Assembly (NCBI GenBank): GCA_025055765.1
Contig: JANWWS010000046.1
Span: forward strand, 1-64,000
Direction of reading: 5' to 3'
Origin: Leptospiraceae bacterium
GTDB lineage: Bacteria; Spirochaetota; Leptospiria; Turneriellales; Turneriellaceae
DNA length: 64,000 nt
Shown: positions 24,396 through 28,132 of the stretch, one piece after another
Layout of the letters: each line of letters begins with the position of its first letter
Position numbering within the stretch: position 1 is the first letter of the stretch
Notes under the pieces: generated by a model
What the model was told of the DNA's origin: nothing
The model's database searches: none
Seen by the model: only the letters and a program-made list of their open reading frames with translations
Position numbers and translations under genes: made by a program

Positions 24396-26320
24396 CGCTG
24401 CAAAATTTCTCTTGGCTTCGAACCTATCTGTGGTCCAATCATCCCTCGAGCCTCAAAGGCCTCAATGAGCCTGGCAGCACGGTTATAACCAATACGCAAT
24501 CGGCGCTGCAAGTAACTTGCCGAGGCCTTGCCACTTTCCAAAATAATCTGCCAGGCAACCTCAAAAAGCTCTTCATCCTCTTCTTCTAGCTGGGCAGAAT
24601 TAGCCTTGGGATCTTCGAGCACAATATAAGACGGTTGCCCAAGCCCACGGGCGTATTCGACGACTTTTTCCACCTCTTCATCTTCCACAAGAGGGGCTTG
24701 TATACGTAATAATTCGCCTCGATTAGGATGTTTAAAGAGAAGGTCTCCCTGTCCCACAAGTTGTTCGGCGCCATTGGCGTCTAAAATAGTACGTGAGTCC
24801 GTTTTTTGGGCAACCTGAAGCGCTATACGTGCGGGACAATTAGCCTTAATTAACGCTGTGATGACATCTACAGATGGGCGCTGAGTGGCTAAGATTAAAT
24901 GAATGCCTACGGCACGGGCTTTTTGAGAAAGTCGAATAATAGAGCCTTCCACCTCTTTGCCAGCCACCATCATGAGATCCCCTAGCTCATCTATAAGAAT
25001 TACAATATACGGCATGGGAGGAAATTCTTCGTCAATGATCCTTTTCTCATTTTGTAATTGTTTAAGTCGCTGGTTATAAGATCGTATATCCCTCACCCGC
25101 ATCTCAGCTAAATCTTCGTAGCGCCTCTCCATTTCTTCGACAGCCCAGTTTAGGGCCAAAACTGCCTTCTGGGCATCCGTTATTACCGGATGCAAGAGGT
25201 GGGGTATATCATTGTAATGAGACAGTTCCACAAGCTTGGGATCCACCAATAAAAAGCGTATCTCCTCAGGTGTTTTTGTTAATATAAAACTTGAAATAAA
25301 AGCATTAATGGCCACCGATTTACCGGAACCTGTGGCGCCGGCGACGAGTAGGTGGGGCATTCTTGTAAGGTCTATGTAAACGGGGTTTCCCGCAATATCT
25401 CGGCCCAAAGGTAAACCTAGCTCTGCTTTAAATTCGGCCCAGGCTGGTTCTGCCAAAAGATCCCCTAGCCTTACCTGGCTGCGTTTCCTATTAGGAATTT
25501 CGACCCCAACTGTTGAGCGCCCAGGAATAGGGGCTTCAATACGCACGCGCAGCGCCTCTAAAGCCATGGCAAGCTCATCGGTTAGCGATAAAATACGGCT
25601 TACCTTAATACCAGGAGCAAGTTTAAGTTCATATCGGGTAATAATTGGCCCTCGTTGGACACCAATGACCTTCCCCTCTATGCCAAATTGTTGTAAAGTT
25701 TCCTCTAATCGGGAAATGACACTTTGGGTTTCTTGAAAATCTACCACACCATCCATCGAGGTGCCACTGCGCAGGAGTTTCCATGGCTCGTCTATTCCCC
25801 CGAGTCGTCGCACAACCGGCGTAATGGAAGCTCTCTCATACTCCTCGCTATGAGCCGAGGTATTTTCCCTGTCTTGCCTTTTCTCTTCCTCTTTTATTTT
25901 TTCTTTTTGAGAAAAACCTGTCTCTTCTAGAGTGCATTTTTCTTCTTGCCTAGGATTTTCTTCTCTTTTGGCAAGAGAGGACAAGGGGAAAAAATATTCG
26001 CAAGAAGGTTGGGACTTTTGTTCTTTTTTCTCCCACACATAGATAAATTTTGTTGGATAATATGTTATGTTGGATCGGGCTTGGCTTTCCCCTTTTTCTT
26101 CCATAGAACTTTGCTTACTTGTCTTATCCTCCCCAAAAGCAGTTATTTCTTGGGGTGTTGCTTCTGCCAAATCTAGGGACCCCTCTAGTTCTTTGAGTTT
26201 TTGCTCAAGATTTCGAGAAAACTCCTCTTTTTCGTTAGCTACCTCATCTTGTAGGTAGACTACTTCAATCCAGGGTAACTTTTCTTCCTTGGAGATGATT
26301 TTTTTTTCAAACCACAGCAT
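24392..26320 (-). CDS. ftsK: DNA translocase FtsK, form without membrane domain
   Basis: 642 aa. The motor is complete: alpha and beta domains (about 195-560) with Walker A GATGSGKS (328-335), Walker B VILIDELGDL, the ATQRPSVDVI motif, and a C-terminal winged-helix gamma domain (about 585-642, ending SKPREIL) for reading KOPS-like sites. The first 175 residues are charged, low-complexity and have no membrane segment, whereas FtsK normally starts with four. The upstream frame is occupied by uppP (14-nt overlap), so no membrane domain has been missed. It would pump chromosome termini at division. How it is held at the septum is not visible. Confidence 0.93.
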   Translation of the reverse strand: MLWFEKKIISKEEKLPWIEVVYLQDEVANEKEEFSRNLEQKLKELEGSLDLAEATPQEITAFGEDKTSKQSSMEEKGESQARSNITYYPTKFIYVWEKKEQKSQPSCEYFFPLSSLAKREENPRQEEKCTLEETGFSQKEKIKEEEKRQDRENTSAHSEEYERASITPVVRRLGGIDEPWKLLRSGTSMDGVVDFQETQSVISRLEETLQQFGIEGKVIGVQRGPIITRYELKLAPGIKVSRILSLTDELAMALEALRVRIEAPIPGRSTVGVEIPNRKRSQVRLGDLLAEPAWAEFKAELGLPLGRDIAGNPVYIDLTRMPHLLVAGATGSGKSVAINAFISSFILTKTPEEIRFLLVDPKLVELSHYNDIPHLLHPVITDAQKAVLALNWAVEEMERRYEDLAEMRVRDIRSYNQRLKQLQNEKRIIDEEFPPMPYIVILIDELGDLMMVAGKEVEGSIIRLSQKARAVGIHLILATQRPSVDVITALIKANCPARIALQVAQKTDSRTILDANGAEQLVGQGDLLFKHPNRGELLRIQAPLVEDEEVEKVVEYARGLGQPSYIVLEDPKANSAQLEEEDEELFEVAWQIILESGKASASYLQRRLRIGYNRAARLIEAFEARGMIGPQIGSKPREILQR

Positions 26321-27230
26321 AAAACTTGAGATAAAATAAAACTAGAAGCCCAAGAATAGCTGTGTAGATACCAAAAGGATAAAAGAGCATTTTCTGACCA
26401 AGCCAAGCTAAAAAGCGAATAGACAAAACACCTGAAGCATACGCAGAGACAATTCCCAAAAGAGCTAAATCAACTCTAAGTTGAGGAGTGGTGGTGTGCT
26501 GGAGTACATCTAAGATTTCAAAAGCAAAAGCGCCAATAAGAGCGGGAATGGAGAGAAGAAAGCTAAAGCGGACTGCTGAGCTTCCCTCAAAATGCATAAA
26601 AAGAGCCGAAGTTATCGTGGCTCCCGAGCGCGATATCCCCGGAAAAACAGCAAGCGCTTGAAAACATCCTATAACAAGAGCTTGCGCCATATTCATTTCA
26701 TATATATTTTTGGGTTTTTTTGTGCGACTCATTTTGCGAAAGAAAATATCTGCTAAGAGTAACAGCAAAGCATTGCCCAAAAAAAAGTAGCCAATAGCCT
26801 CGAGGCTTTTCACCGCCCTTTCAACCTGGTGTTTAAAAAATGGAACACTAACTAAAGGGACTGTTCCCGCAAAAATGAGAAGCCCCGTCATGAAGTGGCG
26901 GGATCGGTAATTTTTTTGCCACAGTGCTTTAAAAAAACCGTGGGTTATATCCTTAACTTCTTGAACCATGTACCCAACAATCGCTAATATAGTTCCCATA
27001 TGCAAGATGACATTGAAGGCAAGGAGAGGAAAATGTCTTTCGAGTTGCTGGACGTGATGCTGAAAGATCGGTAAGGATTCTAAAAGAGCCAGATGGCCAC
27101 TTGAGGATATAGGTAGGAATTCCGTTATACCCTGTAGCAGTCCAAGACAAATAACGAAAATAATAAGTTCCACATCTTTATTTCGGAAAAAATTATGCTC
27201 TTTTAGAGTCTTTTTCTCTCTCGTCTCCAC
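26307..27230 (-). CDS. uppP: Undecaprenyl-diphosphate phosphatase (BacA/UppP)
   Basis: 307 aa polytopic membrane enzyme that recycles undecaprenyl pyrophosphate for wall and LPS synthesis. Both active-site motifs are present: GITEFLPISSSGHL near residues 34-47 and PGISRSGATIT in the second half. The frame starts at GTG 27230 (GTGGAGACG), with AGG just upstream. A GTG at 27173 would give the more usual short N-terminus, so the extra 19 residues may not be translated. It overlaps ftsK by 14 nt. The structured region upstream suggests RNA-level control. Confidence 0.95.
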   Translation of the reverse strand: METREKKTLKEHNFFRNKDVELIIFVICLGLLQGITEFLPISSSGHLALLESLPIFQHHVQQLERHFPLLAFNVILHMGTILAIVGYMVQEVKDITHGFFKALWQKNYRSRHFMTGLLIFAGTVPLVSVPFFKHQVERAVKSLEAIGYFFLGNALLLLLADIFFRKMSRTKKPKNIYEMNMAQALVIGCFQALAVFPGISRSGATITSALFMHFEGSSAVRFSFLLSIPALIGAFAFEILDVLQHTTTPQLRVDLALLGIVSAYASGVLSIRFLAWLGQKMLFYPFGIYTAILGLLVLFYLKFYAVV

Positions 27231-27235
27231 ATCCT

Positions 27236-27312
27236 AAAAAAGAGCCCTTGCGTTGCTTTTTCTCGAGACCAGGCTCTGGCCGCCGTAGCTAACCTCTTTT
27301 AGACAACGCAAG
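27236..27312 (-). ncRNA. Possible pseudoknotted leader RNA upstream of uppP
   Basis: Two stems interleave as in an H-type pseudoknot. CTTGCGTTG (27247-27255) is a perfect 9-bp partner of CAACGCAAG (27304-27312), and AGAGCC (27241-27246) is a perfect 6-bp partner of GGCTCT (27272-27277). On the uppP strand the last stem arm is followed directly by six T (27241-27236) and then the AGG ribosome site of uppP. The stems could coexist or compete like an attenuator. I recognise no known riboswitch class. The element is inferred from base pairing alone. Confidence 0.4.
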
Positions 27313-27314
27313 AT

Positions 27315-27350
27315 AAAAAAGATGGCCTAGCTACTTCTTAGCTTCGCCAT
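27315..27350 (-). terminator. Intrinsic terminator-like hairpin upstream of uppP
   Basis: On the minus strand ATGGC (27350-27346) pairs with GCCAT (27326-27322), and inside it AGCTA pairs with TAGCT (27343-27339 with 27333-27329) around a 5-nt loop. A GA/AG internal step lies between the two stems. C and six T follow (27321-27315). This is a good intrinsic terminator shape, yet no gene lies upstream on that strand, so it would end a leader or a small RNA. Confidence 0.5.
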
Positions 27351-27574
27351 GGCAACTAATCCCTATTTTTGACCAGGGTAGAGTCTTTGTACCATCTCTA
27401 AAAAGCTCGTTTTTTAAAGAAAATGAAATTTAGCGACAGTACTAATTGGCATTGGCTTTCTTGGCCAAAACTGCTTTCTAATACAAGCATATGAATTATT
27501 CCCGTTCTAGTTTGTAGGCAGGCAATTTTTGCGAAAAACTTGACATAGAATTTTTCCTGCCAAAACAGGGGAGC
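27351..27574. other. Gene-free stretch between uppP leader and next gene
   Basis: No coding frame is credible here. On the minus strand two further short hairpins precede the terminator: TAGAG/CTCTA and CCCT/AGGG (about 27361-27401). On the plus strand GGCAGG (27517-27522) can pair with CCTGCC (27556-27561), and the latter could instead pair with CAGG at 27566-27569 next to the ribosome site of the gene at 27575. Confidence 0.4.
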
Positions 27575-28132
27575 ATGCAAAGTCTTTTTAAGTTATGGAA
27601 AGCTGCCTATCTAACCAAACGGATGAACCGTTTGCTGCGCAAATTTGAAAAAGAAGCAAGTAAAAAAAAAATTAACCAAATTGAATATGGCAACTTGCGC
27701 CGGGGAGAAATATGGGGTTCGTGGGATGATGATCAGCTTATTTATTCTTTTGAAATTGATGTTGTTGCAGAAAGACCTTTTCAATATAGAGTGGTCTATG
27801 ATGCAAGCCGTAGGCTCTTCCTATGTTATTCCCGACTCGTATCAAAGGCAGATATTGCTCATTTTTTGCAGTTTACGGTCCGAAATTTTTCTCTCTTAAA
27901 AATAAAGCTCATTAACTTAGTAAACCACATCCCTGCCATGCGCGAGCGTTTTTTAAGGCAATATCTTTATAATCTTGCCAGTGAGCAAAAAGGCAGTCGT
28001 TTTCTTCGCTTTTTCCGTTCCTCTGCTAGTAAAAAAGAAGCCTTACTTGAATTTTTGGAAAATCTGCTTCAAGAAAAAAAAATATCCCAAAGGGAATACG
28101 AGCGCCTTCGCTCGTATGCTATGGAACTCTAA
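27575..28132 (+). CDS. Hypothetical protein, basic, helical
   Basis: 185 aa, not recognised. The first 35 residues are strongly basic and helical. A central beta-rich part (about 40-85) has two strands with the motif GEIWGSWDDDQLIYSFE. The C-terminal half is helical and charged, ending with a repeat-like KKISQREYERL. No signal peptide or membrane span is seen. Start ATG 27575 has AGGGGAG just upstream, and a hairpin there could mask it. The last 14 nt overlap the convergent serS gene. Confidence 0.7.
   Translation: MQSLFKLWKAAYLTKRMNRLLRKFEKEASKKKINQIEYGNLRRGEIWGSWDDDQLIYSFEIDVVAERPFQYRVVYDASRRLFLCYSRLVSKADIAHFLQFTVRNFSLLKIKLINLVNHIPAMRERFLRQYLYNLASEQKGSRFLRFFRSSASKKEALLEFLENLLQEKKISQREYERLRSYAMEL

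Follow-up and report, generated by a model that had tools for sequence, protein, structure and literature searches.

The leader of uppP, the undecaprenyl-diphosphate phosphatase gene of a Leptospiraceae bacterium, contains one plausible intrinsic terminator, a hairpin with a T6 tract at 27350-27315, which in the tentatively preferred reading, given a little under an even chance from sequence, would end a short RNA. In that reading two interleaved stems further downstream, S1 and S2, are a chance pattern. The whole site is probably ordinary, because the pseudoknot that the two stems might form is unsupported by related genomes or by folding. All positions refer to the window, the whole stretch of 64,000 nucleotides that was analysed; the source genome is 2.5 Mb in 50 contigs. 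It has a match to FlaA (PF04620), as do 58 of 60 relatives and none of 14 control genomes; FlaA being a spirochaete family, this points to a member of Spirochaetota.

The divergent gap and the start of uppP

The site occupies a 344-nt gap separating two divergent genes, uppP on the minus strand and a gene for a 185-aa protein on the plus strand (Table 1); an ftsK-like gene comes after uppP. The uppP enzyme recycles the cell-wall lipid carrier and confers bacitracin tolerance. The 185-aa protein matched no Pfam family, and its gene is considered real because a search of 47 other genomes found homologues in 11, all of the same family or order. The median gap over 71 divergent pairs is 101 nt, and 12 of the pairs have one as long as this. 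On its own strand the terminator-like hairpin has only intergenic DNA upstream. The arrangement of the two genes is not kept in relatives where both are comparable (about 19 kb apart in G017; in G015 they lie on separate contigs). A tRNA or tmRNA was rejected after a search of the window, and a repeated element, or further copies elsewhere in the same genome, after a genome search.

Table 1. Features of the uppP leader and its surroundings
Feature	Position	Strand	Basis
uppP/bacA, undecaprenyl-diphosphate phosphatase (BacA, PF02673)	26307..27173	-	Pfam match, translation
Probable uppP start GTG, replacing GTG 27230-27228	27171..27173	-	14 aa before G.TEF motif
Third T6 tract, same leader	27187..27192	-	sequence
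Second T6 tract	27236..27241	-	sequence
S2 3' arm GGCTCT	27241..27246	-	sequence, inverted repeat I7
S1 3' arm CAACGCAAG	27247..27255	-	sequence, inverted repeat I6
S2 5' arm AGAGCC	27272..27277	-	sequence, fold
S1 5' arm CTTGCGTTG	27304..27312	-	sequence, inverted repeat I6
Intrinsic-terminator-like hairpin + C + T6	27315..27350 (hairpin 27350-27322; T6 27320-27315)	-	sequence, fold
30-codon open frame MLVLESSFGQESQCQLVLSLNFIFFKKRAF	27398-27490	-	open frame upstream of terminator
Best promoter-like match for leader, TTGCCT + 19-nt spacer + AATAAT; weak	27495..27525	-	motif scan
185-aa protein gene	27575-28132	+	homologues in other genomes

The start of uppP is placed, with moderate confidence, at GTG 27173 and not at GTG 27230, because of the distances between start and G.TEF motif in homologues. 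In 68 of 88 homologous loci the first in-frame start lies 11-18 aa before this motif; in 15 it lies at least 30 aa before it, and there the true start may be internal. Counted from the translation of the window, the distance is 33 aa for GTG 27230 and 14 aa for GTG 27173, and the sole start of the nearest homologue (L003) is likewise 14 aa from the motif. These 88 loci were kept from 109, the other 21 being dropped as unmatched to the start-motif pattern; upstream statistics use 85, three having less than 200 nt upstream. A contig scan with alignment A1 supplied 80 distant uppP loci, used for start-site and upstream statistics only. The 19 extra residues read from GTG 27230 (27171-27230, minus strand) are atypical of homologues. 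No clear Shine-Dalgarno word precedes GTG 27173; a 4-base Shine-Dalgarno match is found for 130 of 381 predicted genes versus 52 in a control stretch. A preliminary description of this DNA had set the second T6 tract beside the uppP ribosome site, which is probably wrong, as homologues put the start some 60 nt further on and about 63 nt separate this tract from the likely start codon. The third T6 tract had been overlooked.

The hairpin and T6 tract at 27350-27315

The hairpin (27350-27322) has two 5-bp helices separated by a 2x2 internal loop and capped by a 5-nt loop, with a folding energy of -12.5 kcal/mol. The sequence criterion for an intrinsic terminator is a stable stem-loop and then a U-rich tract; both are found here, one C apart, and the terminator shape earlier described on the uppP strand is present letter for letter. 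Like other intrinsic (Rho-independent) terminators, it has a stem-loop followed by T6 on the transcribed strand. It differs from them in the internal loop within its stem and in its place upstream of a gene, and is best termed a putative terminator. Transcription across 27350-27315, termination there and any regulation are predictions from this shape. A transcript would begin between the two divergent genes, possibly around 27490; part of transcription would stop at the hairpin, freeing a short RNA from the leader or 5' UTR, and expression of uppP would depend on read-through or on a promoter that was not seen. Against this reading, no good promoter for such a transcript was found, the spacer of the best match being 19 nt long. 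An S1/S2 switch would not be needed. A short frame, MAKLRSS, lies inside the hairpin on the minus strand and is of a kind that readily arises by chance.

A transcription attenuator would include an upstream helix that pairs with the arms of the terminator stem. None was seen among 23 inverted repeats, a list from which stems with more mismatches may be missing, and upstream pairing reaches only the T tract of the terminator (27314-27320 with 27410-27416). The 3' arm can enter a 7-bp downstream pairing, in transient folds, once 27290 has been transcribed; this is too late for antitermination of the first T6.

A hairpin formed by chance is nearly as likely as an intrinsic terminator acting upstream of uppP. 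In this doubtful but serious alternative no RNA has a function, the hairpin and stems are accidents of intergenic DNA rich in A/T runs, and the promoter and leader of uppP are ordinary. For example, 442 kb of the same genome hold 115 equally strong hairpins before a T tract (59 in shuffles), 99 of them inside predicted genes, and a chance origin is therefore possible. Runs of T6 or A6 are common, at 4.1-4.7 per kb in non-coding and 3.3-3.4 per kb in coding DNA. In folding, the 131-nt region does not stand out from ordinary upstream DNA: its z-score is -1.20, 28 of 200 shuffles are as good, and 16 of 85 upstream regions of the genome have z of -1.2 or below. Over 345 nt the z-scores of the two strands (-1.66 minus, -1.97 plus) are similar, so that folding gives the minus strand no preference. 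The lack of conservation among the genomes searched fits the chance reading as well. Against it stand the strength of the hairpin, which ranks 4th among 85 upstream gaps in the genome that are 120 nt or longer, and the rarity of the interleaved pattern when strictly defined.

A separate small-RNA or small-protein gene, running from about 27490 to 27315 and ending at the terminator, with uppP transcribed apart from it, is an unlikely explanation. Besides the terminator at its end, the weak promoter-like match (27525-27495) and the 30-codon open frame (27490-27398) point in its direction. The frame, however, is readily expected by chance; a stricter promoter scan found nothing for the leader, and in neither scan was a promoter seen between the terminator and uppP. 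A small RNA of this kind also lacks an Rfam match and a homologue in 295 other genomes. The 6S RNA (RF00013) of this genome is matched elsewhere, on another contig (C49), and was excluded as the identity of the site.

The interleaved stems S1 and S2

S1 is a perfect stem of 9 bp and S2 one of 6 bp, and the last base of S2 is the first T of the second T6 tract. The perfect, interleaved stems ending in T6 that had been reported are thus in the minus strand exactly as spelled. In H-type pseudoknot riboswitch expression platforms two stems are interleaved and the 3' one enters a T tract. S1 and S2 are alike in their interleaving and in the run of S2 into a T tract; they differ in having no family match or conservation, and in an inner hairpin that is favoured over S2. 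The interleaved pseudoknot is most likely a chance pattern.

The rarity of the pattern varies with its definition. A strict form (S1 of at least 9 bp, S2 of at least 6, T tail), set post hoc once the pattern had been seen, occurs once in the window, while 30 shuffles average 0.1 per 64 kb. When the 344-nt gap is shuffled 2000 times it turns up in 2 of the shuffled sequences, and the 442 kb hold it at 2 places, one of them non-coding. Relaxed forms with a T tail occupy 11 places of the 442 kb at 8/6 and 123 at S1 of at least 7 and S2 of at least 5, the latter count agreeing with a pattern without function. Taken by itself, a perfect stem of 9 bp within 80 nt is found in 277 of 2000 gap shuffles. 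The word AGAGCC occurs 342 times in the 442 kb (contig C26 and positions 1-254844 of C49), about twice the 168 predicted from base composition, and the S2 arm is therefore a common word in its own genome. As a shared operator word the S1 arm was rejected: it occurs 4 times in the 442 kb versus 2.9 expected, and two of these are S1 itself.

Folding models allow S1 and disfavour S2. In a transcript reaching the second T6, S1 stands at about 1.0 and S2 at 0.0 in the nested ensemble, a model outside which the S1+S2 knot falls. Forcing S2 yields -15.5 versus -23.5 kcal/mol, a cost of 8 in a nested model that does not score the pseudoknot. As an intrinsic terminator (27277-27236), S2 fails to hold its stem in competition in the same nested model, pseudoknots not being covered. 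A rival 6-bp inner hairpin (GGCCAG/CUGGUC) has the S2 5' arm within its loop and 3' arm, and in the model S1 and this hairpin out-compete S2. The S2 3'-arm bases 27245-27241 in turn fall within a perfect 8-bp pairing, 27245-27238/27204-27197 (I7), which is present in the fold of a longer transcript. On these models S1 may fold into a long hairpin of the ordinary kind, and S2 most likely forms rarely if at all.

It is quite improbable that the leader is truly two-stage, with the terminator followed by an S1/S2 pseudoknot whose second terminator (S2 arm and T6) is controlled by a ligand or factor. The perfect stems with their T tail, so seldom reproduced in gap shuffles, would suit such a leader, as would the abutting 3' arms of S1 and S2, loops of 26 and 16 nt that from the sequence look knot-compatible, and the switch-like alternative partner (I7) downstream of the S2 3' arm. 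The two-stage control leader proposed in the preliminary description is nevertheless not supported: S2 is out-competed in the nested model, its 5' arm being covered by the inner hairpin; none of the 23 inverted repeats gives an upstream helix that opposes the terminator stem; the second T6 is far from the likely start; and the S1/S2 element is absent in 60 relatives, the nearest uppP having no such leader. Barely credible is a lineage-specific leader with two terminators, in which the pseudoknot, together with the 8-bp pairing between the S2 3' arm and the 5' region of uppP, would switch expression as envelope stress or the lipid-carrier level changes.

Relatives, known systems and meaning

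No Rfam family gave a gathering match in the window, and a search of 27000-27700 returned only U11, at E 3.7; the earlier remark that no known riboswitch class is recognisable was right. When the entire gap was searched by blastn against 296 genomes from the phylum, its own included, the only full-length copy among the matches listed was its own. The others listed span some 17-50 nt, and many of them fall in a single A/T-rich stretch; their best E is 7.6e-4. A single-sequence covariance model of S1/S2 run on 61 genomes, again including its own, found only itself at E <0.2; weaker matches in G001, G024 and G025 (E 0.24-0.48) are not on the listed uppP contigs, and for G001 none is listed. A scan of genome contigs with the uppP protein yielded no relative.

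The 100 genomes compared for uppP include no other from the same genus. The closest uppP, in G004, has 57% identity; 72 nt upstream of it is a gene that, from its sequence, is presumably TetR-like, and its upstream region holds no comparable leader. None of the genomes searched conserves the leader, so that evolutionary support is lacking even for the terminator. The lack of homologues neither speaks against a young, lineage-specific element nor lends it support. Among 85 loci upstream of uppP homologues (L003-L111), 10 have a T-tract hairpin at or below -9 kcal/mol, versus 2.9 in shuffles; these hairpins may do no more than terminate the genes before them.

No leader element of uppP was found described in the literature, as judged by titles and the openings of abstracts. 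Transcription starts and small RNAs of Leptospira are reportedly the subject of one published study. A partial analogy comes from E. coli, where IspZ, a terminator-made RNA from the 5' UTR of ispU (uppS), was demonstrated by Term-seq and a northern blot (PMC7815308). The likeness, by analogy only, is that a gene of the undecaprenyl pathway has in its 5' UTR an intrinsic terminator, putative in the present case, that gives a short RNA; the difference is that IspZ belongs to a synthase gene in a distant phylum and is a proven RNA, whereas here the gene is for a phosphatase and the RNA is predicted.

If the uppP terminator does not work, the lesson is that stem patterns near T runs in a single genome should not be called 'regulatory' until a relative or an RNA map backs them. 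If it does work, a spirochaete would control its uppP through premature termination, which would add modestly to what is known of leader control.
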